From Hyphococcus luteus (GTDB taxonomy: Bacteria; Pseudomonadota; Alphaproteobacteria; Caulobacterales; Parvularculaceae), in contig NZ_PJCH01000015.1 of assembly GCF_002943565.1 (NCBI RefSeq), positions 620,001 through 684,000 on the forward strand: a DNA stretch of 64,000 bases, read 5' to 3'. This document shows positions 1 through 20,752 of this stretch, in pieces. The notes under the pieces were generated by a model. The model saw only the letters and a list, made by a program, of their open reading frames with translations, was not told the DNA's origin and made no database searches. Position 1 is the first letter of the stretch; each line of letters opens with the position of its first letter. The position numbers were made by a program, and so were the translations under genes.

Positions 1-894
1 GGCGTTGGTGAAAATGGAGCGCGCGGCGCCCGTAATCGCTTTATCGATGTCGGCGTCGGGCATGACGATCACCGGGGTCTTGCCGCCAAGCTCAAGCGTT
101 ACGCGTTTGAAATTCCCCGCCGACGCCTTGATGATTTCGCGCCCCACCTCCGTCGACCCCGTAAAGGTGACCTTGTCGACGCCGGGATGGGCCGTCAGCG
201 CCGCGCCGGCTTCAACGCCGTCGCCGGTCAGAAGGTTGAACGCGCCATCGGGGAACCCTGCTTCCTGAACGAGATGGGCGAGGCGCAACGCTGTCAGCGG
301 CGTTTGCTCGGCCGGTTTCAATATAACGGCGCAGCCCGCCGCCAGCGCGGGCGCCGCTTTCTGGACAGCCATGGCGAAAGGCGTGTTCCATGGAACGATC
401 TGCGCAACGACGCCGACCGGCTCGCGGACCGTGTAAGCGTGCCAGTCGCCGGGTCCTGAAAGGCTGATCGTCTCGCCAGTCAGCTTGGTGCACCAGCCGG
501 CGTTATAGCGAATCGACTCGACGGCGTACGGAATGTCGAAGTAACGTGACTCGTTTATAGGTTTTCCGTTGTCGAGCGTTTCGAGCGTCGCAATTTCATC
601 AATATTCGCTTCCACCAATTCCGCCAGACGAAGAAGCAGTCTCGCCCGCTCAGCCGGCTTCATCTCGAAGAGCGGGCCTTCCAGCGCCGCGCGCGCCGCC
701 TTCGATGCAAGATCAGCGTCTTCCTCGCCGCCTGCCGCGACAGTCGCCAGGACCTGTCTGGTCGCTGGATTGATGCTGTCAAAAGTCTTGCCGGACGCAG
801 CGTCGCGCCAGGCGCCGCCAATCAAGAGCTGGTGTTTCGAAGCCGCGAATGTCTGCGCTTTTTCGAGGGCGGCGGCGCGAGCGGTTTCGTCCAT
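1..894 (-). CDS. Aldehyde dehydrogenase (NAD(P)+), 3'-truncated by window edge
   Basis: The first 298 codons of a classical aldehyde dehydrogenase are visible; the gene runs off the left edge. The start ATG at 894 has a good GGGAG ribosome site six bases upstream. Seen in order: the Rossmann-fold entry PWNTPF carrying the catalytic Asn, the cofactor-site motif KPAEQTP, FTGSTEVG, and the catalytic-Glu motif ELGGK. The last visible residues are FTNA, so the catalytic Cys lies just outside the window. The family oxidises aldehydes to acids with NAD(P)+. It diverges from a GMC alcohol oxidase at 990, so the pair could take an alcohol through an aldehyde to an acid. Because the hydratase/lyase nearby would release vanillin or 4-hydroxybenzaldehyde, an aromatic aldehyde is also a fair substrate guess, but specificity cannot be read from the sequence. 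Confidence 0.9.
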   Translation of the reverse strand, partial: MDETARAAALEKAQTFAASKHQLLIGGAWRDAASGKTFDSINPATRQVLATVAAGGEEDADLASKAARAALEGPLFEMKPAERARLLLRLAELVEANIDEIATLETLDNGKPINESRYFDIPYAVESIRYNAGWCTKLTGETISLSGPGDWHAYTVREPVGVVAQIVPWNTPFAMAVQKAAPALAAGCAVILKPAEQTPLTALRLAHLVQEAGFPDGAFNLLTGDGVEAGAALTAHPGVDKVTFTGSTEVGREIIKASAGNFKRVTLELGGKTPVIVMPDADIDKAITGAARSIFTNA

Positions 895-989: not shown

Positions 990-2597
990 GTGAAGCAGTA
1001 TGACTATATAATTGTCGGCGCTGGCTCTGCGGGCTGCGTGCTGGCGAGCCGTCTCAGCGAGAACCCGAAAGTCGAGGTGCTTCTGCTCGAGGCTGGTGGC
1101 TCTGACGCCAATCCTCTTTTCGCGATGCCTCTGGGCTTCCTCACGGCTGCGCGGAATCCGGCCATCGACTGGGGGTATGCGACCGAGCCGGAGCCGCATA
1201 TGAACGGCCGCGTCCTGCCCCTTCCCCGCGGTAAAATCATGGGCGGCTGCTCAACCGTCAACGGCATGATCTACATGCGCGGCCATTCGCTGGATTACGA
1301 CGGCTGGCGTCAAATGGGCTGCGCCGGCTGGGGCGCCGATGACGTTCTTCCTTATTTCCGCAAAATGGAAAGCAGCTGGCGCGGCGGCGGAGAGCTGCAT
1401 GGCGGCGACGGACCTTTGAGCGTGCAGCGGGTCGACAGCGAACGGCTCGGCGGCGACCCGGTCTGGCGCGCGGCGAAAGCGGCGGGACACGATTATGCGC
1501 CCGACTTCAGCAACGGCGCGCTCGGCTATGGCGAGTGCGAGGTCACCGTCAACACGCGCGGGCGACGCGCAAGCGCCTCTCGCGCCTATCTTGGGCCCGC
1601 AGCCTCGCGCGCGAACCTAACCATCGCCAAAAACTCAATAGCAACGCGCATCCTCATCGAAAACGGTCGCGCGACAGGTCTTGTCTATCGGAGCAACGGC
1701 GCGGAGAAAAAAGCGCTCGCCGCACGTGAAGTGATCCTTTCCGGAGGCTCCTATAATTCGCCGCAACTTCTGATGCTGTCGGGCGTAGGTCCCGCCGGCC
1801 ACCTGCAAGAGATGGGCATTGAGGTTCGAAAAGACCTGCCCGGCGTCGGGCGCAATCTTTCCGAGCACCCCTGTCTTTATGCGGAATATGAAACCCATGA
1901 GTCGGTGACATTCCTCAATGCGTTGCGCCTTGACCGCCTGGCGCGCTCCGTCCTCGCCTGGGCGATTAGCGGCAAGGGACCGATGTCGACGCAGATCTGC
2001 AACTGCGCGATCATGCTCAAAACGAGGCCGGAACTGGAGCGGCCCGATATTCAGCTCATGATCCTGCCGGTGAGGCTCGACGCGCGCCCGTGGATTCCGG
2101 GCGTCGGCCAAAGGCAGGCCCATGTTTTCTCCATCATGATCATTCACCTGCATCCGGCAAGCCGCGGCAAGCTGACGCTTCGCTCCGTCGATCCCCTGGA
2201 GAAACCGAAAATCAGTCTCAACCTTCTTTCAACGCCGCAGGACTTCGCCGATGTGCGCGAAGGCGTCGCCGCTGTTCGCAAACTGTTTTCAACATCGCCT
2301 CTGGCCGAAATGATTTCCAAAGAACGAAAACCCGGCGCGTCAATCGCCGATGAGGGCGCGCTTGATGATTATATCCGGAACAATCTCGGCATTACGCAGC
2401 ATCCGGTCGGCACCTGTTCCATGGGCGTTTCAGAGGAGGCGGTCGTCTCCCCTCGTTTGTGCGTTCGCGGGATTGACGGCTTGCGCGTCGTCGACGCCTC
2501 CGTCATGCCCACGGTTCCCAGCGGCAACACCAACGCCGCCGTCATCATGATCGCCGAGAAGGCGGCAGACATGATCCGCGAGGATCACGCCTGCTGA
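990..2597 (+). CDS. GMC-family FAD-dependent oxidoreductase (choline/alcohol dehydrogenase-like)
   Basis: A 535-residue flavoprotein of normal family length, starting at a GTG. The N-terminus has the FAD dinucleotide-binding motif VGAGSAGCVLASRL. GMC signature 1 (GGCSTVNGMIYMRG) lies near residue 90 and signature 2 (SGGSYNSPQLL) near residue 250. The C-terminal domain carries HPVGTCSMG and PSGNTNAAV, which hold the active-site His and Asn pair. The family oxidises primary alcohols to aldehydes with FAD. No signal peptide is seen, so it is cytoplasmic or membrane-peripheral. The divergent aldehyde dehydrogenase could remove its product. It converges on the hydratase/lyase gene with a 15-bp gap. 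Choline dehydrogenase is the usual automatic name, but the catabolic context makes a different alcohol more likely. Confidence 0.88.
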   Translation: MKQYDYIIVGAGSAGCVLASRLSENPKVEVLLLEAGGSDANPLFAMPLGFLTAARNPAIDWGYATEPEPHMNGRVLPLPRGKIMGGCSTVNGMIYMRGHSLDYDGWRQMGCAGWGADDVLPYFRKMESSWRGGGELHGGDGPLSVQRVDSERLGGDPVWRAAKAAGHDYAPDFSNGALGYGECEVTVNTRGRRASASRAYLGPAASRANLTIAKNSIATRILIENGRATGLVYRSNGAEKKALAAREVILSGGSYNSPQLLMLSGVGPAGHLQEMGIEVRKDLPGVGRNLSEHPCLYAEYETHESVTFLNALRLDRLARSVLAWAISGKGPMSTQICNCAIMLKTRPELERPDIQLMILPVRLDARPWIPGVGQRQAHVFSIMIIHLHPASRGKLTLRSVDPLEKPKISLNLLSTPQDFADVREGVAAVRKLFSTSPLAEMISKERKPGASIADEGALDDYIRNNLGITQHPVGTCSMGVSEEAVVSPRLCVRGIDGLRVVDASVMPTVPSGNTNAAVIMIAEKAADMIREDHAC

Positions 2598-2612: not shown

Positions 2613-3470
2613 CTATTCGCGGGTGTAATTGCCGTGACCAGGGCGGAAGGATTTCTCGTCGAGGAACTGCTTCAGTCCTTCCTGCTTGCCTTTTTCCGGA
2701 TCCACAAAAGCAAGCTGGTCCATTTTGGCGGTCAGATATTCCGCCGCCTGCTCCCAGTCCATGTAACGGGCGAATTTGTACGCCATGCGCGCCTGGCGCA
2801 AAACCGTGGGGTTCTTTTCCAGCAGGATTTTGGCAAGTTCGCGCGTTCTCTCCACCAGCTGCTCCGCGGGCACGGCCTCGTTCACAAGGCCCAGTTCTTT
2901 CGCCCGCGCGCCCGTGAACTTCTCGCCGGTCATCACATAATACATCGCTTCACGGTCGCCCATCAGCGTCGATATCGCCTTTGAGACAACGCCGCCCGGA
3001 ATGACGCCCCAGTTGATTTCCGACAATCCGAACACGGCCTTTTCGTCCGTAACCGCAAGATCGCAGCAGATGAGCGGCGTGAAGGCGCCGCCGAAACACC
3101 AGCCGTTCACCATGGCGATGGTGGGCTTCGCATAGTGCATGAGTGTGCGCCACTGCCAGGCGCGGGTGGAGCGATAGGCGCGATGGCGATGCACGTCCGA
3201 TAGACCGTCCGTTGCACGGAAGAAATCCTTAAGGTCCATGCCTGCGGACCAAGCGTCGCCAATGCCGGTGAGAACGATCACGCCGCACCGGTCATCGACT
3301 TCAAGCGCATCGAAAATCTCGTTCATTTCCTCGGCGAGGCCGACGCTCATTGCATTGCGCTTTTCCGGCCTGTTGAACCGGACCCATGCAATTCCGTCCT
3401 CGAAATCGACAATCACATTATCGCCGCCAGGAAGATTGTCGGCGTGCTTGTATTCAGTTTTTTCCGTCAT
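2613..3470 (-). CDS. ferB: p-Hydroxycinnamoyl-CoA (feruloyl-CoA) hydratase/lyase
   Basis: A crotonase-fold enzyme of 285 residues that resembles bacterial hydroxycinnamoyl-CoA hydratase-lyase along its full length. Shared blocks include NRPEKRNAMS, AGMDLKDFF, YAKPTIAMVNGWCFGG (oxyanion region) and FGLSEINWG, whose Glu151 matches the catalytic Glu of the family. Known family reaction: hydration of feruloyl-, caffeoyl- or p-coumaroyl-CoA, then retro-aldol cleavage to vanillin, protocatechualdehyde or 4-hydroxybenzaldehyde plus acetyl-CoA. The ATG at 3470 is chosen because GGAAAGGG lies just upstream; a start at 3491 would translate that ribosome site. It is transcribed alone from a promoter overlapped by the palindrome at 3528. 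The ferA-like ligase lies directly upstream on the same strand. Confidence 0.88.
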   Translation of the reverse strand: MTEKTEYKHADNLPGGDNVIVDFEDGIAWVRFNRPEKRNAMSVGLAEEMNEIFDALEVDDRCGVIVLTGIGDAWSAGMDLKDFFRATDGLSDVHRHRAYRSTRAWQWRTLMHYAKPTIAMVNGWCFGGAFTPLICCDLAVTDEKAVFGLSEINWGVIPGGVVSKAISTLMGDREAMYYVMTGEKFTGARAKELGLVNEAVPAEQLVERTRELAKILLEKNPTVLRQARMAYKFARYMDWEQAAEYLTAKMDQLAFVDPEKGKQEGLKQFLDEKSFRPGHGNYTRE

Positions 3471-3525
3471 GATCTTTTCCCTTTCCTTCATCCGGCTAAT
3501 GCGGGTCCTCTCTTAGCGAGCGGCC

Positions 3526-3554
3526 TTTATCAGCCAGACTGATATTGAAATTAA
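3526..3554 (-). promoter_or_regulatory. Promoter with MarR-type operator, copy 1
   Basis: On the minus strand a -35-like TTAATT (3554-3549) and a -10-like GATAAA (3531-3526) are spaced by 17 bp. A perfect palindrome, TATCAG-CCAGA-CTGATA (3528-3544), covers the spacer and part of the -10. The same 18-bp core recurs at 6527-6544 with the same geometry. A repressor bound here would block RNA polymerase. The MarR protein encoded at 8058-8513 is the obvious candidate (inference). Confidence 0.65.
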
Positions 3555-3580
3555 AATTACGCCTGCATTTGGCACCTCTG

Positions 3581-5704
3581 TTATTTCCCTTTCACGATGA
3601 GCGCATCGAGAGCCATGGCGCCTTCGCCGTCAGCGAAAAGCATCACCGGATTAATGTCGACTTCCGTTATCGACGGATCGGCGCGCATCGCGTCTCCCAA
3701 CAGCACAACGATTTCCGCGAGAGCGTTAACGTCACGCGCCGGCTGTCCGCGGAATGCTTTTAAAAGACTTGCGCCCTGCATCGCGCAGATGCGCTCTACA
3801 GCCTGCTTATGGGTTATGTCGGGCGGCATGATCTCAACGGCTTTCAACGCCTCGATCCAGACGCCCCCAAGCCCCGCGAGAACGACCGGCCCCCATTCCG
3901 GATCCCGTTTCGCGCCGACGACCATTTCAAGACCCGGCTTTGACATTTGCTCAAGAAGCACGCCCTCAAGCTCGGCGGTTTTCGACGCCTCGGCGATATT
4001 CGCATGAAGCCTGTCCCAGGCGGCTTTCAACTCAGCCTCATCCTTGACGCCGACGATGACGCCGCCGATGTCGCTCTTGTGCATCAGCGTGGAGCCATGC
4101 GCCTTGATGACGATCGGATAACCAATCTCCGACGCCTTGGCGCAAGCATCGTTCACGGAACTGACAAGGCCGCCCTTCGGAACCGGAACGCCGAGCTTTT
4201 TCAGCCACGCCTTGCCGTCATATTCCGAAACGGCGCCCGCGCCTTTGAGCAACGGCAGGCCTTCAGGCGCCGCCCTCCGGCCTTCCGCCGCCTCGCGCGC
4301 CTTGGCGAAGCCATGCACCGCCGCCATGGCGCGGATCGAACGGTCCAGCGAGCGGAACAGCGGAATCTCATTGTCCCGCACGATGGTCTTGAACTCGTCA
4401 TCGAGGGCGGACTGATCGCCGGTAATGGTCAGAACCACCGGCTTGTCGGTCCCCTTCATAACCGGCGCCAGAGCTTCCGCTTTCGCCCGCTGCTGGTGCG
4501 GTCCGCCGCCGATCATGGCGTACAAGATGGAAGCGGCGTTGTCGTCCGCCAGCAGCGCGGCCGCCGTATCGGTATAGACGCCGGCGTTCGAGTAGCCGGC
4601 GGTGCCAAGATCGAGCGGAAGGTCGATTTCCATTCCAGCCGGAACCAGAGACTTGAAAAGCTCCAGCGTCGCCGCCGACGGGGTCGCCAACGGCAATCCG
4701 ACATCTTCGATCATGTCGAGAGAAAGACCTCTTATGGCGCCTGAATTGGTGACGATGGCGGCGTCTCCAAAAGGCGATTTCGGAAAACGCTGCAGGATCA
4801 CCGTCGCGTCGAGAAGCTCGTCCATGGTTTCAACAAGGACGACCGCCTCCTTCTCGACTGCCGTCTTCATCATGGCGTAATCGCCCGTCAGGGCGCCCGT
4901 ATGGGATTGCGCAGCCTCTCTGGCGCGCGCGCTGCGGCCCGGATGCAGCATGATGATGGGCACGCCCTTTTCACGGGCGCGCCGCGCCGCGGCGAGAAAG
5001 GCTTGAGGATCGCGGATCTGTTCGATGTAAAGCGCGACCGCGGCAACGCCCTCCTCGATCACATAGGAAACGAAATCCGCCGCATGCAGGACCGCCTCGT
5101 TGCCCGTGGTGATCATGTGTGAAATGGAAAGGCCGCGCGCGCGGAAAGCATCCCGCACGCTTGTCGCGGTCGCCCCGCTCTGAGCGATCACTGCAACGCG
5201 CCTTGCGCCTTTCGCGCTCATCGTGTCGAAGCTTTGCCCTTCGAACGTCGCAGAAAATCCGTCGGCGTAATTGATGAAACCAAGGCAGTTCGGCCCGATG
5301 AGCGCCAATCCGTTTTCACGGCAAAGGGCGGAGATCGCCTCCTGTTCCGCACGGCCTGCTTCGCCTGTTTCGCCGAAACCGGAAGCGAACACGACAGCCC
5401 CGCCGACCTTGCGCGCGGCGCAATCCTCCAGCGCCTGACGGATTGCGGCGTGCGGAATGTTCAAGATGACTGCGTCGGTTCCCTCAGGAATGTCGCGCAG
5501 CGACTTCACGCAAGGACGGCCGTTGATTTCATCGCGGCGGGGACTGACAAGGGTCAGCGCCCCGTCAAAACCCGAAGCCTGAACATTCCCCAGGACCGCG
5601 CCGCCGATGGACTTCGGGTCCGGCGAGGCGCCGGCGATGGCGACGGAGGATGGGTTAAGAAGCCGGCGCAAATCAAAACGCGGTGCGGAACCGGAAACGC
5701 TCAT
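3581..5704 (-). CDS. ferA: NDP-forming acyl-CoA synthetase, probable feruloyl-CoA synthetase
   Basis: A 707-residue fused acyl-CoA ligase of the ADP-forming superfamily. Order: CoA-binding Rossmann domain (about 10-140), succinyl-CoA-ligase-like domain with the phosphohistidine motif QSHTGAL (His268), and a C-terminal ATP-grasp domain from about 490 (IKAHGSTLMHKSDIGG, then EVDINPVML near the end). Family chemistry: acid + CoA + ATP gives acyl-CoA + ADP + Pi through a phosphohistidine. The sphingomonad ferulate ligase FerA belongs to this superfamily, unlike the AMP-forming Fcs of pseudomonads. With the hydratase/lyase next door, hydroxycinnamate activation is the best call. The ATG at 5704 begins two bases after the aldolase stop; an upstream start at 5791 would run into that gene. 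It is co-transcribed with the aldolase. Confidence 0.8.
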   Translation of the reverse strand: MSVSGSAPRFDLRRLLNPSSVAIAGASPDPKSIGGAVLGNVQASGFDGALTLVSPRRDEINGRPCVKSLRDIPEGTDAVILNIPHAAIRQALEDCAARKVGGAVVFASGFGETGEAGRAEQEAISALCRENGLALIGPNCLGFINYADGFSATFEGQSFDTMSAKGARRVAVIAQSGATATSVRDAFRARGLSISHMITTGNEAVLHAADFVSYVIEEGVAAVALYIEQIRDPQAFLAAARRAREKGVPIIMLHPGRSARAREAAQSHTGALTGDYAMMKTAVEKEAVVLVETMDELLDATVILQRFPKSPFGDAAIVTNSGAIRGLSLDMIEDVGLPLATPSAATLELFKSLVPAGMEIDLPLDLGTAGYSNAGVYTDTAAALLADDNAASILYAMIGGGPHQQRAKAEALAPVMKGTDKPVVLTITGDQSALDDEFKTIVRDNEIPLFRSLDRSIRAMAAVHGFAKAREAAEGRRAAPEGLPLLKGAGAVSEYDGKAWLKKLGVPVPKGGLVSSVNDACAKASEIGYPIVIKAHGSTLMHKSDIGGVIVGVKDEAELKAAWDRLHANIAEASKTAELEGVLLEQMSKPGLEMVVGAKRDPEWGPVVLAGLGGVWIEALKAVEIMPPDITHKQAVERICAMQGASLLKAFRGQPARDVNALAEIVVLLGDAMRADPSITEVDINPVMLFADGEGAMALDALIVKGK

Positions 5705-5706
5705 GG

Positions 5707-6489
5707 TCAATCTTCTTTCTGACGATAAGGACTGAAATTGGCCGCCGCCGCTTTCAGCGCATTTTTGTACATGGTGAGATCCGATTGCCATGCGATATAT
5801 TTGACGCCGCGCTCCACATAGGATTTCAGCTGATCGGGATTGCCGACCACAGCGCCGAGATGTTTGCCGTGACGGACCCCGGCTTCGATCACCTTGTCGA
5901 CAGCCGCCTGCACGTCAGGATGGCCCGCCTTTCCGGGATGGCCGAGCGACTGGCTTAAATCGCCTGTCCCAATAAACAGGACGTCGAGATGATCGATCTC
6001 GCAAAGCGCCTCGATCTCATCGACCATCTCTTTATTTTCGACATGCACCGAGACCACGGTTTCGCGATTGGCGCGCTCCACATATTCGTCGACATTAAAA
6101 AAGGCGTAGCCGGCGGCGCGGCATCCCGGCGCCCACCCTCTTCCGCCGATGGGATGATATTTGGATTTGTGGACAACCTCCCGGACCTGATCGGGATGTC
6201 GCAGCGAGGGCACCTGAACGCCGCTGGCGCCGCTGTCGAGCGCATGAAGGATGTTCGCCTCGCTGGCGTCCTGCGTGCGGATGATTGAGCTCATGCCCGC
6301 CCGCTCGCAGGCGCGGATCATGGTTTCGACGTCCGCATGACCGAAGGTTGAGTGTTCGCAGTCGATAATCAGAAAATCGAACCCGGCGAATCCGAAAAGC
6401 TCCACCAGATTTGGAGAGTTGAACTTAAAGAATGAACCAAAAACCGTCTCTCCGCGGTCGAGCTTTTTTTTGATGCAGCTGTTAAACAT
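5707..6489 (-). CDS. HpcH/HpaI family aldolase
   Basis: A 260-residue class II TIM-barrel aldolase of the HpcH/HpaI (citrate lyase beta-like) family. Visible family marks are the DCEHSTFG motif with catalytic His46, the IIRTQD loop with its Arg, the substrate loop GVQVPSL, a VENKE segment with a metal-binding Glu, and FIGTGDLS with the metal-binding Asp. The family performs reversible retro-aldol cleavage to pyruvate, oxaloacetate or glyoxylate plus an aldehyde. It is the first gene of a two-gene operon with the ferA-like ligase (2-bp gap), preceded by the operator at 6526. A role for such an aldolase in CoA-dependent hydroxycinnamate breakdown is not canonical. It may serve lower aromatic-ring catabolism (4-hydroxy-2-oxo acid cleavage) or an aldehyde-consuming side route. 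Confidence 0.85.
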   Translation of the reverse strand: MFNSCIKKKLDRGETVFGSFFKFNSPNLVELFGFAGFDFLIIDCEHSTFGHADVETMIRACERAGMSSIIRTQDASEANILHALDSGASGVQVPSLRHPDQVREVVHKSKYHPIGGRGWAPGCRAAGYAFFNVDEYVERANRETVVSVHVENKEMVDEIEALCEIDHLDVLFIGTGDLSQSLGHPGKAGHPDVQAAVDKVIEAGVRHGKHLGAVVGNPDQLKSYVERGVKYIAWQSDLTMYKNALKAAAANFSPYRQKED

Positions 6490-6524
6490 GATGGGGTTCC
6501 ACGTAATTGCGTTGCGCGATATTC

Positions 6525-6553
6525 AATATCAGCCAGACTGATATAGGAAACAA
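6525..6553 (-). promoter_or_regulatory. Promoter with MarR-type operator, copy 2
   Basis: The minus strand carries TTGTTT (6553-6548), a 17-bp spacer and GATATT (6530-6525), a recognisable sigma-70-like promoter about 35 bp upstream of the aldolase ATG. The spacer is filled by ATATCAGCCAGACTGATAT (6526-6544), a 7-bp perfect inverted repeat around a 5-bp centre. Its core matches the palindrome at 3528. Repression by the local MarR protein is inferred. Confidence 0.68.
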
Positions 6554-6596
6554 TGTCAGCCTCGCCTTACCTTCATTATTGCACATCTCCGGTGAA

Positions 6597-7949
6597 TCAG
6601 GCGGTCGCTTGTTCGGCTTCTTCGTCAGCCGTCAGCCGCCCGCCCCCGGCCAGCAGCATGGTAAGCGCGGGAATGACGGAAATGACCGCAAATACAGCGA
6701 AGACGGACATCCGGCCAAGCCCGGCGCCGACAAGCAATCCGCCCAGCATCGGCCCGAGGATCGATCCGACTCGTCCCCAGCCGACAATATAACCGACACC
6801 CGTATTGCGCATTTCCACCGTGTAGATGTTGATCGCTACGAGGAAGACGCCGGTATAAGCGCCGACCGTGAACATGGTCATGACGCCTGCGGTCGTCAGC
6901 AGCAGCCAAGGCGCCGGCGGCGCCATGCCGAAAAAGATCAGCGCCACGGTGAGCAACGCAAAATAGGCCGCCGTCAGCTTCACATTGTCGAACCATTTGG
7001 TCAGAATGGCGATGGAGATGTGACCGACAACGCCGAAAACGCCGTTGAGCACGCCCACATAGCTCGCCATAACCGGTGTCAGTCCCGCATTCACCAGCAC
7101 CTGCGGCTTCCAGTTCATCAGGAAGTAGCCGACAATGGCGTAAGCAAAGGACGCCACCCAGATCAGGATCGTCTGGGTCCGCATTCCCTCCGACAGAAGC
7201 AGCGCAAAACTCGGCTTTCCTTTTGTCTTGACCTTTTTCGGCGGCAGCGCGTCCAGCTGCGTGAAATTCAGCTTTCCAAGCACCTTGTTGATCCGCTGAA
7301 GCGCGTTGCGCGGCTGCTGGCTCGTAAGATATTCCGGCGATTCCAGCAGGAAAAAATATCCAAGTATCAGGACCACGCAATTAAGGACCCCGCCGGCCAC
7401 AAAGATGTAGCGCCAGCCCAGCGTATCCAGCACGTTCGCCGCGACGAGGCCGCTGAGCGCCATCCCGATCGAAAATCCGGTGTGCAGACTAGCAATGAGC
7501 AGATTGCGCCAGCGTTCATTGCTGAACTCGGACACCATCACATTGAGGCTCACAACAAGCGTCCCAAGCCCCAGCCCCATCACGAAACGCAGGGCAAGGA
7601 TTACCCAGATGCTGCCGGCAATTGCAGAAAGCCAGTGCACCACCGTTATAATAGCGACCGCCGCCAGGATGACAGTGCGACGGCCAACGCGGTCGGCCAC
7701 GGGCGCGACAAAAAACGCGCCAAGCGCCAGACCGACCGATGTTGCGCTGAACGCCAGCCCCAGAATTTCCGGAGACACCGACCATTCCTTCGTCAGCTCA
7801 GGCGCCGCGAGTCCGAGCGAAAGAACGTCATAGCCCTCCGACATGTTGATCAGACAGCACAAGCCTACGACCAAGAATTGCAGCAAGCTCATGGGCGATT
7901 GCGCAATGACTTCGCGCGCGGGGTTATCGCTCGCCTGATCATCTCTCAT
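6597..7949 (-). CDS. MFS transporter, aromatic acid:H+ symporter type (PcaK/BenK-like)
   Basis: A 450-residue, 12-helix major facilitator protein. The loop between helices 2 and 3 has the MFS motif (PVADRVGRRTVILA), and helix 1 has the EGYDVLSLG segment typical of the aromatic-acid symporter group, whose acidic residue is needed for transport. A charged central loop (about residues 200-245) separates the two six-helix halves. Family role: proton-driven uptake of benzoate-type acids across the inner membrane. The ATG at 7949 is preferred because GGAG lies six bases upstream; a TTG 12 bases earlier lacks a site. It follows marR by 108 bp and precedes the aldolase-ligase operon, so import of the hydroxycinnamate or a product is the likely role. 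Confidence 0.85.
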   Translation of the reverse strand: MRDDQASDNPAREVIAQSPMSLLQFLVVGLCCLINMSEGYDVLSLGLAAPELTKEWSVSPEILGLAFSATSVGLALGAFFVAPVADRVGRRTVILAAVAIITVVHWLSAIAGSIWVILALRFVMGLGLGTLVVSLNVMVSEFSNERWRNLLIASLHTGFSIGMALSGLVAANVLDTLGWRYIFVAGGVLNCVVLILGYFFLLESPEYLTSQQPRNALQRINKVLGKLNFTQLDALPPKKVKTKGKPSFALLLSEGMRTQTILIWVASFAYAIVGYFLMNWKPQVLVNAGLTPVMASYVGVLNGVFGVVGHISIAILTKWFDNVKLTAAYFALLTVALIFFGMAPPAPWLLLTTAGVMTMFTVGAYTGVFLVAINIYTVEMRNTGVGYIVGWGRVGSILGPMLGGLLVGAGLGRMSVFAVFAVISVIPALTMLLAGGGRLTADEEAEQATA

Positions 7950-8057
7950 AAGGCGCTCCAATATTGCGGCCGCAGAGAACGAACTGCAGCGGACTTAAGG
8001 GAAAAATACGAAAACATGGTGCGGCACAGCCCTGCGGCGCGTCTGCAACGCCGGGCG

Positions 8058-8513
8058 TCAGTCCATATTCCGCAAAAGCCGGAACAGGCTTGCGCGAAAT
8101 TCGTCGCGCTGCTGCTTTGAGAACGACCGAAACAGCAGTTTCTCGAGTTTCAACGCCTCTTCCGAACAGTCGCGCAACGTGCGGCGGCCGGCGCGCGTCA
8201 ACGACATCTCGAGGACGCGCCGGTTTTCCGGAGACACGATCCTCTTGATGAGGCCGAGCCCCTCGAGCTGGGCGATCTGCTTGTTCATGGTCTGCGGGCG
8301 CACATCGAAAAGCCGTGAAAGCTCCGCCGAAGACAGATGGCTGTGATGATCTATTTCCGCCAGCACGCGAAATTGCACCGCAGTGACGCCATAGGGTTCG
8401 AGCGCCGCGCCGAGACGCATCGACGACTTCAGCTGTACGTGTTTGATCAGATAAAGAAGCAGCGGTCCCTCGGAAAATTTCGGGTCCGCCGTCTTTTTCG
8501 CAGCGCCGCTCAT
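8058..8513 (-). CDS. MarR-family transcriptional regulator (FerC-like candidate)
   Basis: A 151-residue winged-helix protein. The recognition region reads LSRLFDVRPQTMNKQIAQLE, followed by a wing with SPENRRVLEMSLT, as in MarR dimers. The ATG at 8513 has an AGAGG ribosome site; the ATG at 8549 has none. MarR proteins bind short palindromes and release DNA on binding aromatic ligands or their CoA thioesters. In sphingomonads a MarR protein (FerC) represses ferulate genes and responds to feruloyl-CoA. The two matching palindromes at 3528 and 6526 are its probable sites. It sits between the MetE-like gene (64 bp) and the importer (108 bp); no copy of the palindrome is seen in front of marR itself. 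Confidence 0.85.
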   Translation of the reverse strand: MSGAAKKTADPKFSEGPLLLYLIKHVQLKSSMRLGAALEPYGVTAVQFRVLAEIDHHSHLSSAELSRLFDVRPQTMNKQIAQLEGLGLIKRIVSPENRRVLEMSLTRAGRRTLRDCSEEALKLEKLLFRSFSKQQRDEFRASLFRLLRNMD

Positions 8514-8577
8514 GTCGCCTCTTTGGCTCAAATCGAGGCGAGTGTCCATAGAAACAATGAGAGCCGAACCGCATCAT

Positions 8578-9603
8578 TCAGGCCAGCTCCGCCCGAACGA
8601 TCTTCGCCCCTTCAGCCATCGCCTTCATTTTCCCGAAGGCGGTTTCATGCGGGAGATATTTCAGGCCGCAGTCAGGCGCGACGATCACATTGGCTGCGGG
8701 GACGACTTCAAGCCCCGCGCGGATGCGTTCGGCCACCGTTTCCGGACTCTCAATCTCCGGATCGCTGAGATCGAGCACGCCCAGAATAACTTTTTTGTCT
8801 TTCAGCGGCGCTAGCTCTTTCGGATTGAGATGGCTTTGCGCCGTCTCCACCGAAACCTGATCGATCCCGGTTTCCGCCAGTTCGCCGAGAAAATGATACC
8901 CTGTAGCTCGTTCGTCATGAATGATCGCCGCATAGCCGAAACAGATATGGAGCGCCGTTTCGCCTTTAACGCCGTCCAGAGCGCGCTGCAGCGCCTTCAC
9001 CCCGTATTCGCGCGCCTTTTCGGGCCGGGCCTGCATATAGGGTTCGTCAAGCTGAACGATGTCAGCCCCGGCCTCGAACAGATCCTTGATTTCTTCATTG
9101 AGCGCCGCCGCATAATCGAGAGCGAGCGCCGCCTCATCTTCATAATGATCATTTTGCGCCTGCTGGCTCATAGTGAAGGGCCCGGGCACGGTAATCTTTA
9201 TTTTTCTGTCCGTATGGGCGCGAAGAAATTTTACGTCCTCGACCTGCACCGGATATTTGCGCCTGATCTTGCCGGTAATGCGCGGCACCGGATTGGGATG
9301 GCCGCTGCGGTCAAGCGCGGTCCCGTGATTTTCCATATCGACGCCCTCAAGCGCCGTTGCAAATCTATTTGAATAACTTTCCCGGCGCATCTCCCCATCG
9401 GTGATGATGTCGAGGCCGGCCTGCTCTTGATCGTGAATCGCCATGATGGTGGCGTCGTTTTGCGCCTCTTCCAGCCATTGCGGATCAACCCTCCACAATT
9501 CCTTGGCGCGCACCCGGGGCGGGAAACGGTCCTGCAGCCGTTTCCGGTCAATCAGCCACTCCGGCATCGCATAAGAACCAACCAAGGATGTGGGCAAAAG
9601 CAT
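8578..9603 (-). CDS. MetE C-terminal-like (cobalamin-independent methionine synthase type) methyltransferase core
   Basis: A 341-residue single barrel that matches only the catalytic C-terminal half of MetE (full MetE is about 750 residues). The complete zinc site is visible: His219 and Cys221 in LHICFGY, Glu253 in VSVETAQ and Cys312 in APDCGLK. A folate-side DEPYM segment lies near 186-190. MetE moves a methyl group from methyl-tetrahydrofolate to a zinc-bound thiol; stand-alone cores are known, but their donors and acceptors are often undefined. The ATG at 9603 is preferred over a TTG at 9612, which lies only two bases after AGGGAG. Set in an aromatic-catabolic cluster, it could handle methyl groups from methoxylated aromatics or act on a thiol substrate of its own; this is inference. 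True methionine synthesis is less likely here. Confidence 0.75.
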   Translation of the reverse strand: MLLPTSLVGSYAMPEWLIDRKRLQDRFPPRVRAKELWRVDPQWLEEAQNDATIMAIHDQEQAGLDIITDGEMRRESYSNRFATALEGVDMENHGTALDRSGHPNPVPRITGKIRRKYPVQVEDVKFLRAHTDRKIKITVPGPFTMSQQAQNDHYEDEAALALDYAAALNEEIKDLFEAGADIVQLDEPYMQARPEKAREYGVKALQRALDGVKGETALHICFGYAAIIHDERATGYHFLGELAETGIDQVSVETAQSHLNPKELAPLKDKKVILGVLDLSDPEIESPETVAERIRAGLEVVPAANVIVAPDCGLKYLPHETAFGKMKAMAEGAKIVRAELA

Positions 9604-9665
9604 TAAATTCAACTCCCTTTAAGTTTTGTCTTGAGCGCGCGCAGCATGCTCCCGGCTCGATCCGA

Positions 9666-10562
9666 TCAGGCTCCCTCAAGCCCCATCAGCCGCGCGGCGT
9701 TGCCGCCGGTCATTTTGCGCACTTCTTCTTCGCTATGGCCGAGATCGAGGCACATATTGATGACGTAACGCAGGCCTTCGACGGGCGTCGGATTACCCTC
9801 CTGCCCCAGGTCCGAGCCGATGATCGTGTGGTCGACGCCGCCGGCCTCGATCAATTCGCCAAGACCTTCGAGCGTGTATTTGCCGCTCTTGTTTTGAACG
9901 CCCGCCCACATGCAGCAGGAATGCTCAAGCATGGCCCCCATGGCGGCGAGCTCGCTGATGTCCGAAAGGCTGCAGCCAATAAGAAAAGTCGGGTGGTTTA
10001 CCAGAAGGCGCGTCACGCCGCGCGCCTTGGCTTCATCGAACAACGGCCAGATTTCGGATATGTGCAGATGGCCCGCCGAAAGCACGCCGTCATATTTGGC
10101 GATGATGTCGAGGATCGTCTTGACCTCGTCGACAAGTTCGCCCGTATCCGTGACGATCGTCAGCGCTTTCGGCTTCAACATTTCCTCTTTGGTCGCAAGG
10201 TAATTCTTGCGATGCGAATGACGAATGTGATTGGCCGCTGAAAAAGTCGGCATCCAGACAAGCCGGGCGTTCAGCTTGAAGCCGTGGTCTACGGCATAAG
10301 GATTGAGCCCGCCGACCGTATTGTTGAGCGGAACGCCCGACAGGAGCTCCACCTTGAGCGGCATTGTCTCTTTCAAGAGCTCGACGACAGGCGTGACGGA
10401 ATAATAATGATCCTTGAAGAGAATGGCGCGCAGCCCCGCTTCTTCCGCCTGTTTGATCGCTTCGACATGATTGAGCCCGCGCGGCATCACGGACGGGCCG
10501 CTGTGACAGTGCAAATCGATGGCGCCGGTCATCAGGCGGTCAATCTGTTCTTCACGATTCAT
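9666..10562 (-). CDS. DUF6282 family protein (amidohydrolase-like TIM barrel)
   Basis: A 298-residue soluble protein. The N-terminal IDLHCHSGP motif is the His-x-His metal signature of amidohydrolase/PHP-like barrels. Further His residues occur in FKDHYYS, SAGHLHISE and LLVNHPTF, and IIGSDLGQ supplies a terminal Asp, consistent with a metal-dependent hydrolase or decarboxylase barrel. The ATG at 10562 is preceded by GGAG at a good distance; a GTG at 10574 would bury that site. I recognise the family as DUF6282, for which I know no defined substrate. Gaps of 41 bp to the cupin and 62 bp to the MetE-like gene, all on one strand, suggest one operon and one pathway. Confidence 0.72.
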   Translation of the reverse strand: MNREEQIDRLMTGAIDLHCHSGPSVMPRGLNHVEAIKQAEEAGLRAILFKDHYYSVTPVVELLKETMPLKVELLSGVPLNNTVGGLNPYAVDHGFKLNARLVWMPTFSAANHIRHSHRKNYLATKEEMLKPKALTIVTDTGELVDEVKTILDIIAKYDGVLSAGHLHISEIWPLFDEAKARGVTRLLVNHPTFLIGCSLSDISELAAMGAMLEHSCCMWAGVQNKSGKYTLEGLGELIEAGGVDHTIIGSDLGQEGNPTPVEGLRYVINMCLDLGHSEEEVRKMTGGNAARLMGLEGA

Positions 10563-10603
10563 TTGTTGCTCCACTCATTGAGGAATCGCCATTTGAAGAG
10601 CGA

Positions 10604-11512
10604 TCAATCGCCGAAGTCAGGCATCGGATAATCGTCCGCGTTCAGCACCCATCCTTCACGTTCGGAAAAATCCCGCCTCGGCGGGCAAAAGGCGTCGCAC
10701 AGCCGGTTAAGACCGTCCGTCATGCCTGCGGATGTGTGGGTGGCCGGCGGCGGGATGACGCAAACCGAAGGCGCATTGCAATAGGCATGCTCATCTTCGC
10801 GCCATGTGGTCATGTCATGCGTCCATGGCCAACGCAGGTGATGGGTGAACTCTCCGGCGAGCGCGATCGAATATTGCTCGAAGTCGTCATGATGATGCGG
10901 CGAAACGTTTTTCGGATCGCGTTTGCCGACCCGGCCGTCGCCGAAATTCACCATGACCGTCGAGCCGCGATAAAGACGGCCGAAACGCCCCTCTTCACGC
11001 GGCACGGTTCCGGAATAAGCGCGAATGCGATGCCCGCCGACCGGCTCGGGCCAGGCTTCAAACGGCGCCACGTTCGGGTCTGGCTCTTTATAATCGCCTT
11101 TGTTGGGACATTTTTCGACGAGATCGGCTGACTGCGTGGTGATGAGACGCCAAATGGCGCCGTCGTTTTTCGTTTCGATTTCGCTTTCGCCCGGCGGAAT
11201 GAAAACCACGGAAGGACCGGAAATTGTCTGTTCCTCTCCGTTGGCGGTGACTTTCACCGTCATTCCTTCAAAGGGAAGCAGAAGAGCATATTCGTCCGGC
11301 TGATTTTTGCGCGTAAAACGTCCGCCAGCCTTCGCCTCAATGTAATTTACGATGAGCGTTTGCCCGCGGCAGAGCCAGGAGGCGCCGTTTTCATCGCTTT
11401 CTACAGGCTTTTCATTATAGAAAAGCCCGTAAGACGCCGGCTGAAACGGCGTTCGCATTTCCGGCTGTTTATTGGAAACCAAAGACGCACGAAGGTCATT
11501 CTTACCATACAT
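10604..11512 (-). CDS. Bicupin-like protein with one intact metal site
   Basis: A 302-residue protein made of two beta-barrel cupin halves. The second half has a full cupin motif 1, HHHDDFE (H-x-H-x3-E) about residues 203-209, and motif 2, PPPATHTSAG, giving the fourth His. The first half has the matching strands (EYALLLPFEGM and VVFIPPGES) but lacks the His ligands, so it is a degenerate copy. Intact sites of this kind bind Fe or Mn in dioxygenases, isomerases and decarboxylases. No signal peptide is seen. It is the first gene of the run cupin, DUF6282, MetE-like, marR, importer. A ring-cleavage or quercetinase-like dioxygenase is conceivable, but a specific reaction cannot be assigned. Confidence 0.68.
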   Translation of the reverse strand: MYGKNDLRASLVSNKQPEMRTPFQPASYGLFYNEKPVESDENGASWLCRGQTLIVNYIEAKAGGRFTRKNQPDEYALLLPFEGMTVKVTANGEEQTISGPSVVFIPPGESEIETKNDGAIWRLITTQSADLVEKCPNKGDYKEPDPNVAPFEAWPEPVGGHRIRAYSGTVPREEGRFGRLYRGSTVMVNFGDGRVGKRDPKNVSPHHHDDFEQYSIALAGEFTHHLRWPWTHDMTTWREDEHAYCNAPSVCVIPPPATHTSAGMTDGLNRLCDAFCPPRRDFSEREGWVLNADDYPMPDFGD

Positions 11513-11696
11513 GGCGGTCTTAAATACTCCTCCCGGCCGACTGGCGGCGGCCTATGTTCTTTTCTTTGTGACGGCGGCAAAAACGCCATTCCGCATTTGT
11601 TGTTAGGGCGACCTTAGGTCCCCCGTCAGGGCGGGTCTAATTCTTTCTGGGAGCGCCACCCATAACCCGCAGGCATAAAAAAGCGACCGATCCAGC

Positions 11697-11708
11697 AATA
11701 ATATTATT
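11697..11708. promoter_or_regulatory. AT-rich palindrome between SDR and cupin genes
   Basis: AATAATATTATT is a perfect 12-bp palindrome in the 239-bp gap upstream of the cupin gene. It lies nearer the 3' end of the SDR gene, about 185 bp from the cupin start, so it could be an upstream binding site or chance AT-rich symmetry. The rest of the gap shows no convincing promoter hexamers. Confidence 0.25.
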
Positions 11709-11751
11709 ATTGACGAACGCCGGCAGGGAAGCGCCGCCAGTTGCGCCTCTC

Positions 11752-12483
11752 CTATCCGCGGCCCAGGAACGGGACCCGCACCGGCAAAATCACCGTATCA
11801 AGCAGCGTCATTTCCGGCGGCAGCCCACACAGATAAACGATCAGATCGCCGATATGCGCCGGCTCGAGGCGGTCGGGCGAAGGTTTGTCGCTGAACCCCG
11901 GCGCCAGCATCGATCGTGTGGCTCCCGGATGAATGGCTGCGGCCGTGATGAGATCGTCGCGGTAATCGAGCGCAATCTGCTTGGTCATTCCCTCAATTGC
12001 GAACTTGCTCGCCGTATAGGCCATGGAATGCCCCCGCGGAATTTTTGCGGACAAGGAGCCGATATTGATAATCCGCCCTCCTGTTCCGTTTTCTTTCATC
12101 AGGCGTATCGCCTCGCGCGAGAACAGGAAATAACTGGTCAGATTGGTGTCGATCACTTGCCGCCACCGCTCTGTGGTCAGCTCGTGGACCGGCGTTGCAT
12201 CGGCCATGCCCGCATTATTGACCAGTATATCGGGAGCGCCGAACGCTTTCAGGCAGGTTTCGAATACGCCGACGATTTCAGATTCCTTTGTTACATCTGC
12301 GGGCGCGGCAAGAGCGCGCTCGCCCTCTGCGGTTATTTCCTGTGCAAGGTCTTCAAGCTTGTCGGCGCTGCGCGCCGTGACGATGACCGACGCGCCGGCG
12401 CGGGCCAGTTGCTGCGCGATTCCGCGGCCGATGCCTGTGCTGGCGCCGGTGATGATGGCGGTTTTACCCGTCAGTTTTGACAT
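11752..12483 (-). CDS. Short-chain dehydrogenase/reductase
   Basis: A 243-residue classical SDR. The cofactor motif TGASTGIG is at residues 13-20, the NNAG motif near 88, a catalytic Ser in IGSLSAK and the Tyr-x3-Lys in YTASK near 155. Family role: NAD(P)-linked oxidation or reduction of alcohols and ketones in the cytoplasm. AGGAG lies just upstream of the ATG. It follows the MFS gene by 67 bp on the same strand and may share its transcript; a 239-bp gap separates it from the cupin gene. The substrate is not predictable. Coenzyme choice is also unclear, although an Arg in TARS after the second strand would favour NADP. Confidence 0.85.
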   Translation of the reverse strand: MSKLTGKTAIITGASTGIGRGIAQQLARAGASVIVTARSADKLEDLAQEITAEGERALAAPADVTKESEIVGVFETCLKAFGAPDILVNNAGMADATPVHELTTERWRQVIDTNLTSYFLFSREAIRLMKENGTGGRIINIGSLSAKIPRGHSMAYTASKFAIEGMTKQIALDYRDDLITAAAIHPGATRSMLAPGFSDKPSPDRLEPAHIGDLIVYLCGLPPEMTLLDTVILPVRVPFLGRG

Positions 12484-12550
12484 AAATGCTCTCCTCCGCG
12501 AATTCGTTTTGCAAAATGTATAGCTGTCATGCGGCGTGAATGAGGATCAG

Positions 12551-14182
12551 CTAAGCGGACTCCATCGCCGGCCGCACAACGACGCTGATGAAAACCTGAA
12601 CGGAATCAGGCCCACGGTGAAGAGCATGGAGCGCTTCGATAATCTCGCGGTCGGCCACAGTCATCCGTGTACGATAGTTCAGATAATCCGCCCAGGTCTT
12701 CACCATAAACCGCATCCGCCATGCACTGGGGTTCTCGACGCTTCGCGTGAGAGTCCAATTGCGAAACCCTATTCTGGCATGGCTTTGCGCCAGCTTCGCC
12801 ATCTTTTCGAGGAAGAGCTCGCGATCCGCATCGTCAATGGAGAACTGTATCTCCACGACAATAGGCCCGTCTCTGGGTGCAAGCGCCTCGGCCGGCCAGC
12901 GGAGTGGCAACGGGTCGCCCGGCTGAACAGCATCGCCCGAGGGAAACGAAACCGGCGCTAGCAATGAAAGCCCGATCGCCAGACAGAAGACGCCCGTCGC
13001 GACCCCCATGACGGCTGAAGTGTCCATATGCGCGGCGAGAACGCCCCACAAGATGCTCGAGCCGGCAAGGCCGCCGGCGGAAAAAGAGAAGTAACTGCTG
13101 AAAACTCTCGCAGCGGCCCACTGAGCGCTATGGAGCTGGCCGATAATGTTCAACAGCGTGATGGAGCCCATATGAGCAAGACCGACCAGATAAAACCCAA
13201 ACATGGAAAGGCCCGCCACAGGCGAAACCGAAACGATCCCGCATCCTGCGGCCCCAATAGCAAGCAAACCGTGCAATAAAGCCTCTGCCCCAAAATTTTT
13301 TCGAATACGTTCAATCAAAAGCGCGCCGGTAATGGAGCCGAAACCGAATGCGGCGAGCAGTCCGCCGTAAGCGGAGGCGCCGGCCCCCAGAATGTCCGTA
13401 GCGATAAACGGCGCAAGCGCAGCCATAACACTCGTGCAACAGCTCACGATCAGCGCCCGGAACTGACAATTTAGAATAACCGGCGAATTGATTATATAAC
13501 GGACTCCCGATCCGACGGCGTCTCCAAGCCGTTCCCTGTAGGACCGGTCCGTTTTTTCAGGCGGACTGAACAGTGAAACGCCGATAATGGGAAGCATGGC
13601 GAAAAACGGCGCTACGAATCCCGCCGCCGTGCCCGCCGCAGCGATGAGCGCGCCGCCGATCGCGGGCCCGACGCTGCGCCCTATATTGAAACTGATCGAG
13701 TTCAGCGAAATCGCCTGGGGCAATTGTTCGTGCGGCAGATATTGACGGATCGACGTCTGCAACGCGGGAATGAAGAACGCTTGGCCGCTTCCAAGTGCAA
13801 AACACAAAAACAAGATCGCGAGCGGCTGCAGCAAAGCCCCTCTGTCTCCCATCCATGCGGCGAAACTGGCCAGCGCCATGACTAATCCCGCAATAAACAT
13901 GATGCGCCGCTTCTCAAAGGTGTCGGCGACAGGCCCTGACAGAAAGCCAAAAAGCAACACCGGCAGAAGAAACGCCGTCTGGACCATGGCGACCCGTTCA
14001 GGATCGTCCGTCATGATTTTCATTAACCAGGCGGCGGTCGCCACCATGATGTGAATGCCGAGATTTGAAGAAAGCGATGCAAGCCAGGTTCGACGGAACG
14101 ACGCATTGCACAAAACATGGGCCGGCGCTTCGCTAGCGCCCGGGGGAAAGTCCGACCCGGAATTGTTCACAATAGCCGCCAT
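12551..14182 (-). CDS. MFS_3/EntS-type transporter with C-terminal soluble domain
   Basis: A 543-residue protein. Residues 25-420 form about 12 transmembrane helices of the EntS-like MFS_3 family, with the loop motif SGPVADTFEKRR after helix 2. Residues 430-543 form a soluble domain with a ferredoxin-like alternation (VVEIQFSID, then WRMRFMVKTW). This length and C-terminal extension are normal for the MFS_3 family. Members are drug or siderophore exporters, and many are annotated only by homology. GGAG is only one base from the ATG at 14182, so the start is uncertain. It heads the minus-strand run that ends with the importer gene, close to the tRNA-Asn fragment. Confidence 0.78.
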   Translation of the reverse strand: MAAIVNNSGSDFPPGASEAPAHVLCNASFRRTWLASLSSNLGIHIMVATAAWLMKIMTDDPERVAMVQTAFLLPVLLFGFLSGPVADTFEKRRIMFIAGLVMALASFAAWMGDRGALLQPLAILFLCFALGSGQAFFIPALQTSIRQYLPHEQLPQAISLNSISFNIGRSVGPAIGGALIAAAGTAAGFVAPFFAMLPIIGVSLFSPPEKTDRSYRERLGDAVGSGVRYIINSPVILNCQFRALIVSCCTSVMAALAPFIATDILGAGASAYGGLLAAFGFGSITGALLIERIRKNFGAEALLHGLLAIGAAGCGIVSVSPVAGLSMFGFYLVGLAHMGSITLLNIIGQLHSAQWAAARVFSSYFSFSAGGLAGSSILWGVLAAHMDTSAVMGVATGVFCLAIGLSLLAPVSFPSGDAVQPGDPLPLRWPAEALAPRDGPIVVEIQFSIDDADRELFLEKMAKLAQSHARIGFRNWTLTRSVENPSAWRMRFMVKTWADYLNYRTRMTVADREIIEALHALHRGPDSVQVFISVVVRPAMESA

Positions 14183-14518
14183 TCTCCGAAATGTTTTTGC
14201 GCGCGGCCGTAACGCGCCCCGCCTTACGCCAGCCGTATAGCGCCGGCACTTTACGACTAAGCTTTTGCTTCATGAGAAGAACAGGTGACAAGAGACCAAT
14301 TAATTCAGAATTGCTATCAATAGACTTGAAAAACGGTATCAAACGTTTTCTGACGGCAGATATTAAATGAAAATGCGAATTACCGGCGGACGGTTTGCAG
14401 AAATGCACAATTATAATCAGTGTCTGCTTGCTATCACGCTTCTAACGAGAGAATGCGGGCAACATTCATTTCAAAACGCCGCCCGACATTCCGGGCATCC
14501 GGCCTTACGGATCAAAAG

Positions 14519-14596
14519 GGCCCGACGAATCAGTCAGAACCGCACGGCAATCTGTTAATCAGCGGGCCACTGGTTCGAGTCCAGTTCGGGGGGCCA
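14519..14596 (+). pseudogene. tRNA-Asn(GTT) remnant: intact 3' half, degenerate 5' half
   Basis: From 14552 to 14596 the sequence reads as the 3' half of tRNA-Asn. It has the anticodon loop CTGTTAA (anticodon GTT), 3' anticodon stem TCAGC, a 5-nt variable loop, a perfect T arm (ACTGG-TTCGAGT-CCAGT, 14569-14585) and TCGGGGG-G-CCA. Upstream, GGCCCGA (14519) pairs with only five of seven acceptor bases. The 5' anticodon-stem bases do not pair, and the D arm is short. A functional tRNA is unlikely. An intact 3' half is what an integrase leaves at the far end of an element inserted in a tRNA gene. The rest of the 574-bp gap 14183-14756 holds AT-rich sequence and the terminator at 14724, and no other gene that I can see. 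Confidence 0.65.
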
Positions 14597-14723
14597 TTTC
14601 ATCAAAACGTAAATTCACCGCAAAATATAAATTTAAACGTCCGGCGCTAGCCAAGCTCCCAGCTCTGGTCGTCGCGGTGCTGCTGCGCCAAAAGCAACAG
14701 CAAACGTGACCGCCGCCGGCCTG

Positions 14724-14746
14724 AAAAAAAAGCCTACGCGCTAAGC
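14724..14746 (-). terminator. Rho-independent terminator of the lipoprotein operon
   Basis: On the minus strand GCTTA-GCGCG-TAGGC forms a 5-bp stem (one G-T pair) followed directly by eight T residues. It begins 11 bp past the lipoprotein stop codon at 14757. The stem is short but the T-run is strong. Confidence 0.55.
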
Positions 14747-14756
14747 ATTGAAATGT

Positions 14757-15542: not shown

Positions 15543-15561
15543 CATTTTCTCCTTTGACTGA

Positions 15562-17088: not shown

Positions 17089-17118
17089 ATCAACTGCCTT
17101 TCCGCCCGGCATGGAGCG

Positions 17119-20722: not shown

Positions 20723-20752
20723 ATTGAAAATCCGGTTTGCAGCGTAGCTCCC

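Follow-up and report, generated by a model that had tools for sequence, protein, structure and literature searches.

What links the hydratase/lyase gene of a 64,000-nucleotide stretch of the Hyphococcus luteus genome (contig NZ_PJCH01000015.1, nt 620,001–684,000; here called the window, with positions counted from its first letter) to the aldolase and ligase genes that precede it on the same strand? The enzyme belongs to the p-hydroxycinnamoyl-CoA hydratase/lyase (HCHL) family, the same palindrome stands before its gene and before the aldolase gene, and a gene for a MarR-family regulator lies at nt 8058–8549. Comparison with related genomes suggests that the twin palindromes are operators of this MarR protein, which would repress the aldolase-ligase genes and the hydratase/lyase gene until a metabolite of an aromatic pathway releases it, and that the regulon has been kept in Sphingomonadales and Terricaulis. 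We put the probability of this reading at about 0.8.

Twin palindromes upstream of two genes

A scan of the window found TATCAGCCAGACTGATAT as an exact 18-mer at nt 3528–3545 (site A) and nt 6527–6544 (site B), in identical orientation and 36–37 bp upstream of the first ATG of the minus-strand hydratase/lyase and aldolase genes. An earlier, sequence-only reading of the window had reported both copies, and the hydratase/lyase, aldolase, ligase and MarR genes it named around them are all present on the minus strand. Shuffles of the window gave an expectation of 0.01 chance matches to the 18-mer with up to three mismatches. When extended to 19 bp, site B forms a 7-5-7 repeat without any mismatch (ATATCAG-CCAGA-CTGATAT), while the arms of site A differ at a single position; their weight-matrix scores are 31.0 and 29.1 bits, respectively, with the sites in the training set, and 29.1 and 27.7 bits with the window sites excluded from it. 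The bases flanking the core differ between the two sites, with scant similarity beyond it, so the pair is not a copied stretch of DNA. The only other palindrome of this type noted in the window (nt 11,288–11,306; 17.8 bits, four mismatches) falls within the coding region of a cupin-like protein and is probably there by chance.

The core is also rare outside the window. In the whole genome of the strain (4.92 Mb in 16 contigs, 99.17% complete) there are two exact copies, both in the window, and allowing up to three mismatches adds only a pair of unlinked matches and the reverse-strand reading of site B. The many unrelated copies that the sequence-only reading had named as counting against an operator were not seen. 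Its promoter claim is weak, and a strong promoter at either site is not supported: hexamer pairs with a 17-bp spacer do occur at the sites (TTAATT/GATAAA and TTGTTT/GATATT), but each agrees with only 7 of 12 consensus bases (3/6 and 4/6), and a sigma-70 scan with a threshold of 9 of 12 returned no promoter at site A or site B.

The regulator clade and its putative operator in relatives

The MarR protein carries the winged helix-turn-helix domain of its family (Pfam MarR_2, 48.4 bits against a cut-off of 27; MarR, 46.0 against 24.6), and a protein search returned eight homologues of 44–92% identity. An alignment of these homologues was scanned against 84,980 species genomes and picked out 22 loci; most are from Sphingomonadales, and one metagenome-assembled genome (MAG) of Terricaulis is among the sources. 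One locus (L079), whose MarR is 26% identical and which matches no window protein at E 1e-8, was dropped and was kept only in the homologue comparison and the 22-locus palindrome count, leaving 21. In a 34-row tree, with long branches flagged, a 100/100 branch separates a MarR clade of 31 rows (the window protein, homologues P0001–P0008 and 22 MarRs from the 21 loci) from three MarRs of hca loci, namely that of the canonical hydratase/lyase locus of the same genome and those of two genomes of the same genus. Most rows of the clade share the recognition helix SSAEL-RL-DV-PQTM-KQI, which is quite different in the three hca-locus proteins.

The symmetrised 19-bp consensus of the sites in relatives is ATATCAGCC-N-GGCTGATAT. 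With up to three mismatches it matches 13 sites in the 22 MarR loci (428.5 kb), compared to a mean of 0.07 and a maximum of 5 for 200 permuted palindromes. The 15-bp core with up to two mismatches matches 19 times in 21 loci against a mean of 1.65, a count reached by 4 of 300 controls. Across 11 genomes with this MarR (45.6 Mb), 46 sites with up to three mismatches were found, 11 of them, by our own count, within 10 kb of the MarR gene (0.22 Mb in total), where 0.22 would be expected; these palindrome counts, in the loci and in the 11 genomes alike, are partly circular because the 19-bp consensus was chosen after some of the loci had been inspected. By weight matrix, a site of at least 18 bits is present in 15 of the 21 loci and one of at least 15 bits in 18 (training sites included). 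The suggestion that the core could serve to find distant members of the regulon thus holds for its symmetrised form.

The hydratase/lyase-ligase module

Ten of the 11 MarR genomes carry a ligase gene (product 52–57% identical to that of the window) followed by a hydratase/lyase gene (76–83%), not always near MarR; the remaining genome, G061, has a canonical-type pair only. An earlier view that placed these two genes outside the sphingomonad regulon was dropped, since although absent within 10 kb of MarR they were later found further off or on another contig. The ten module loci were fetched by homology of the hydratase and the ligase and not by the motif, and in eight of them the ligase gene or, in Terricaulis, the aldolase-ligase series is immediately preceded by a site of at least 15 bits. 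Among these eight, the L147 site, also recorded as that of L067, had served to train the matrix, which leaves seven of nine held out, though several of these genomes contributed other training sites. In none of the ten does the ligase-hydratase/lyase gap contain a site reaching 15 bits, so that site A was either added in the window lineage or lost elsewhere; its presence makes two separate transcripts plausible in the window. Upstream of six aldolase orthologues (58–70% identical to the window protein) there is a variant, TTATAAGCCAAGCTTTCAT or near it, of 15–18.5 bits, and a 13-base part of this, AGCTTGGCTTATA, is invariant in the alignment of the six regions. The association of the palindrome with a nearby MarR gene, and its marking of both genes, were part of the sequence-only reading and are backed by this comparison.

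Site totals were 66 of at least 13 bits, 56 of at least 15 and 32 of at least 18 in the MarR loci (408 kb, training sites included), and 18, 15 and 11 in the module loci (180 kb), the two sets not being wholly separate because L147/L067, L148/L069 and L151/L075 overlap. By the same thresholds, 25 other loci of relatives (91.0 kb) gave three, two and none, and all controls together (261.8 kb) gave two sites of at least 15 bits and none of at least 18.

In two loci (L149 of the Terricaulis MAG, nt 9818–14,749, and L071, nt 13,700–14,463) matches to the ligase, the cupin-like gene and one aldolase gene are broken into several fragments, which points to frameshifts or assembly errors.

Relation to canonical hydroxycinnamate loci

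The most serious alternative is that the regulator is simply a hydroxycinnamate regulator like FerC, CouR or HcaR, released by feruloyl- or p-coumaroyl-CoA, with a module that degrades ferulate or p-coumarate. Together, a ligase and an HCHL-family enzyme account for both steps in the CoA-dependent conversion of ferulate to vanillin (excerpt of PMC5863372), hydroxycinnamoyl-CoA is the signal for MarR regulators of p-hydroxycinnamate catabolism (excerpt of PMC4737184), and the two genes remain together in relatives, usually with a site. Against this alternative, canonical loci exist alongside the module, both in the genome of the window and in several of those with this MarR. The canonical hydratase/lyase locus of the window genome is a separate one whose MarR is CouR-like and which lacks such sites, and canonical loci of the window's genus had no site of at least 13 bits in 78.9 kb. 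Canonical-type hydratase/lyase-ligase loci are present in seven of the 11 MarR genomes (hydratase/lyase 44–59% and ligase 38–41% identical to the window proteins), and no site of at least 13 bits was found in their 92.0 kb. In four of the seven (L155–L158), a MarR resembling the hca-locus MarR of the window genome lies within 2 kb of the pair, and CouR was the best solved relative of the two that were tested; a further locus, L160, matches the other MarR type weakly (33.7%, E 4e-6) and has no sites. That these loci lack sites while four have a CouR-like MarR argues for a regulon separate from the FerC/CouR kind.

The regulators differ as well. The best solved relative of the window MarR is Rv2887 (46.3 bits), ahead of HcaR (3k0l, 35.9) and Rhodopseudomonas palustris CouR (6c28, 31.2), whereas the MarR of the genome's own canonical locus, compared over 111 residues, matches CouR first at 51.4 bits, as do the other two canonical-locus MarRs tested (56.3 and 47.8), all three serving as positive controls. 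In sequence, the window MarR is no closer to CouR and HcaR than to other MarR proteins, a comparison in which FerC and its operator were not included. It would appear to work in the manner of the FerC/CouR/HcaR kind, but we do not file it as a member. We also know of no need in ferulate degradation for the luciferase-like monooxygenase, extradiol-dioxygenase-like protein, aldolase, MetE-like and DUF6282 proteins that accompany this MarR, which we count against a ferulate function. With the active-site difference described below, these observations make the alternative unlikely.

Two of the closest known systems are MarR regulators of Sphingobium sp. SYK-6. The genes controlled by FerC of this strain are an HCHL gene and a gene for an ADP-forming-type ligase. 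FerC resembles the present case as a sphingomonad MarR over p-hydroxycinnamate (ferulate) genes (excerpt of PMC4737184), and differs in that sphingomonad canonical-type loci, with a CouR-like MarR nearby in the four of seven, lack these sites. DesR of the same strain is likewise a MarR repressor that uses inverted repeats at several aromatic-catabolism promoters, but its 15-bp repeats, GTTTGTGTCACATAC and GTTTGTGTAACATAC, are unlike the window sites and serve vanillate and syringate genes (excerpt of PMC6888825). CouR of Rhodococcus jostii RHA1, a MarR repressor of p-hydroxycinnamate genes, likewise has an inverted repeat whose spacer is 5 bp long and which recurs at several promoters within a single catabolic gene set; its box, cATTGA-N5-TCAATg, overlaps the -35 element (excerpt of PMC4737184). 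By eye this box differs from the ATATCAG-N5-CTGATAT of the window. The window MarR also stands apart from CouR sequences.

Further canonical copies were seen. In the Terricaulis MAG another canonical-type gene falls within module locus L149, some 6 kb away from the module itself, and genome G068 has a third copy. In the window genome, four contig ends (C3, end; C7, start; C12, end; C13, end; L110–L113) carry an 823-bp stretch that includes a canonical HCHL gene and is 100% identical among them. Judging from orientation, and from the synteny that C3 and C7 show with L115, the genome probably has two identical canonical copies, which broke the assembly.

A hydratase/lyase subfamily with phenylalanine

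The catalytic Glu143 of the Pseudomonas HCHL has its counterpart in the window enzyme (GLSEINWG, aligned to 2j5i). Tyr75 of HCHL, which contacts the phenolic OH, does not: the window enzyme has Phe at this position (numbering counted from the alignment). The same Phe is found in all of the 120 homologues listed (the best 120 of 7905) and in all ten module orthologues, while Tyr is present in all seven canonical-type genes read, four from MarR genomes and three from the genus of the window. The substitution makes a different substrate possible for the window hydratase/lyase. A literature search on HCHL residues listed no paper on Tyr75 among its top-ranked open-licence papers. Many of the listed Phe-subfamily members bear names such as trans-feruloyl-CoA hydratase/vanillin synthase, and because the substrate of the subfamily may differ, such names may need a second look. 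The subfamily (P0009–P0128; L116–L125) includes members from Nitrospirillum, Pararhodobacter, Niveispirillum and Neorhizobium, genera in which no MarR loci were found.

Other genes with sites, and other possible regulators

Within the MarR loci, sites recur upstream of several kinds of genes. Luciferase-like monooxygenase genes have a site of at least 20 bits in five of seven orthologues (L058, L059, L067, L069 and L077), with 12.8 bits in L075; in L071 this gene is in pieces, the site lying upstream of the first. Extradiol-dioxygenase-like genes next to MarR have upstream sites in L059, L061, L062 and L073, as do MetE-like genes in two of the four loci with homologues (L059 and L071, relative to the matched start) and large open reading frames in L064, L065 and L070, of which the one scanned (L064) encodes a TonB receptor. 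The cupin-like gene of L067 shares its site with the divergent ligase gene. Eight of the 18 orthologues of the transporter gene MFS-a are preceded by a site of at least 15 bits, and the upstream region of MarR itself scores 17.8 bits in L069 and 15.7 in L077. Upstream scores stayed below 10 bits for LLM-b, the alpha/beta hydrolase, the glyoxalase-type protein and LysR, and did not exceed 9.4 bits for the amidohydrolase.

L069 (nt 2966–19,349) holds a conserved sphingomonad cluster of a TonB receptor, two luciferase-like monooxygenases, a RibAB-like enzyme, an alpha/beta hydrolase, an amidohydrolase, IclR and LysR; the same cluster in L077 also has a flavin reductase and an NMT1/THI5-like protein.

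IclR and LysR genes, each present in 12 of the 21 loci (L069 included; many of them sphingomonad), raise the question of whether a regulator other than MarR binds the palindromes, and only in L059 does IclR have a site upstream, which it shares with the divergent luciferase-like gene. Yet eight loci (L066, L067, L068, L071, L074, L075, L076 and L078) have sites of about 15 bits or more with no IclR or LysR match within 10 kb, an absence qualified by homologues farther off in the genomes of L067 and L078 (L147 and L153). Among the genes compared, MarR alone is present in all 21 loci, though the loci were fetched by MarR and the comparison did not cover all regulators. We consider another regulator improbable. 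Reading the palindromes as RNA hairpins (terminators or attenuators), or as duplicated DNA without a regulatory role, is more improbable still: although inverted repeats directly upstream of start codons invite it and a weak terminator-like match falls in the ligase-hydratase gap (nt 3575–3559, one of 10 found in total, a number close to the 7.3 obtained with shuffled sequence), on the coding strand neither palindrome is followed by a T-run, little likeness extends outside the core, and in relatives the sites stand at promoters of differing genes in other orders.

Weighing the MarR operator model

Binding of the sites by the MarR protein is likely. A MarR dimer would sit over or next to the promoter at site B to repress the aldolase-ligase genes, and at site A in the same way to repress the hydratase/lyase gene. 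Judging from the family, repression may be relieved by an aromatic pathway metabolite, perhaps the acyl-CoA made by the ligase. The window regulon would then be a lineage version of one present in Sphingomonadales and Terricaulis, running parallel to the canonical FerC/CouR-type hydroxycinnamate locus.

Several observations weigh against this model. The promoters at both sites are weak by consensus. In the window, no site lies upstream of MarR itself (best 4.4 bits) or in the tested upstream regions of the cupin-like and MetE-like genes. Among the MarR loci, 6 of 21 have no site of at least 18 bits and 3 of 21 none of at least 15, and two of the ten module loci (L145 and L153) have none at the ligase promoter. 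The aldolase-upstream variant TTATAAGCCAAGCTTTCAT differs from the window site at several positions. Sites with three mismatches arise by chance about twice per genome (60 relatives of the window genome), and the loci are related, so that site counts are not independent events. Given the partial circularity of the consensus-based counts, the held-out module loci are the cleaner test.

A wider proposal is offered tentatively, at somewhat less than even odds: that one MarR clade with the operator ATATCAGCC-N-GGCTGATAT governs a previously undescribed, widely conserved regulon of aromatic catabolism in Sphingomonadales, Terricaulis and the window lineage, its supercluster comprising the luciferase-like monooxygenase, extradiol-dioxygenase-like protein, aldolase, MetE-like and DUF6282 proteins, TonB receptors, and the Tyr75-to-Phe hydratase/lyase with its ligase. 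Such a set might degrade a larger phenylpropanoid (e.g., a flavonoid or lignan), the conserved neighbours pointing, speculatively, to an aromatic substrate of larger size from which the cinnamate-like portion is passed on to the ligase and hydratase/lyase. Searches of the literature for the regulator, the operator or the cluster turned up no recognisable description of the regulon or operator among the top-ranked open-licence papers.

Gene content of the locus

The features are listed in Table 1. The order on the minus strand is cupin-like, DUF6282, MetE-like, MarR, MFS, site B, aldolase, ligase, site A and hydratase/lyase, with 2.4–4.6 kb between MarR and the ligase and HCHL genes; the GMC and hydratase/lyase genes converge. 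In the ten module loci, homologues of the cupin-like gene are present in nine, and of the DUF6282, GMC, aldehyde dehydrogenase and MFS (46–51%) genes in seven each. The cupin-like protein, so labelled by us, and two of its homologues have no Pfam match, and in relatives its gene is divergent from the ligase gene. Further along (nt 17,844–25,847) come the gene of an 882-aa LuxR-type regulator that contains AAA and MalT-like regions, then an HlyD-type gene, an MFS gene and the gene of a YcxB-like-domain protein.

Table 1. Putative operators and genes of the window locus.
Feature	Position (nt)	Strand	Evidence or context
Operator A (putative), TTATCAGCCAGACTGATAT on the + strand	3527..3545	-	35 bp before first ATG (3491) of hydratase/lyase; ligase-hydratase gap
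Operator B (putative), ATATCAGCCAGACTGATAT	6526..6544	-	36 bp before aldolase ATG (6489)
MarR-family regulator, proposed binder of A and B	8058..8549 (start 8549 or 8513)	-	Pfam MarR_2 and MarR; clade and recognition helix
HCHL-family hydratase/lyase	2613..3491 (start 3491 or 3470)	-	NCBIfam p-hydroxycinnamoyl CoA hydratase/lyase, 404.9 bits (cut-off 276)
ADP-forming-type acyl-CoA ligase	3581..5704	-	CoA-binding, Succ_CoA_lig and ATP-grasp_5 domains; orthologues 52–57%
HpcH/HpaI-family aldolase	5707..6489	-	Pfam PF03328; orthologues 58–70% in 7/21 MarR loci
MFS transporter, closest to aromatic acid/H+ symporters	6597..7949	-	Best model TIGR00895, under its cut-off
MetE-like (cobalamin-independent methionine synthase family) protein, directly upstream of MarR, same strand	8578..9606	-	Homologues 66–75% in 4/21 MarR loci
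DUF6282 protein	9666..10574	-	Homologues 70–76% in 7/10 module loci
Cupin-like protein	10604..11512	-	Homologues in 9/10 module loci, 56–60% where unbroken
GMC oxidoreductase, conserved module neighbour	990..2597	+	7/10 module loci
Aldehyde dehydrogenase, truncated by window edge, conserved module neighbour	1..891	-	Pfam Aldedh, 332 bits; homologues 66–71% in 7/10 module loci

The observation of two matching sites in one locus has thus become a testable regulator-operator pair that marks one conserved gene set in several alphaproteobacterial lineages. It sets a second HCHL-type system apart from the FerC/CouR kind, often within the same genomes, and points to an HCHL subfamily whose substrate may differ.

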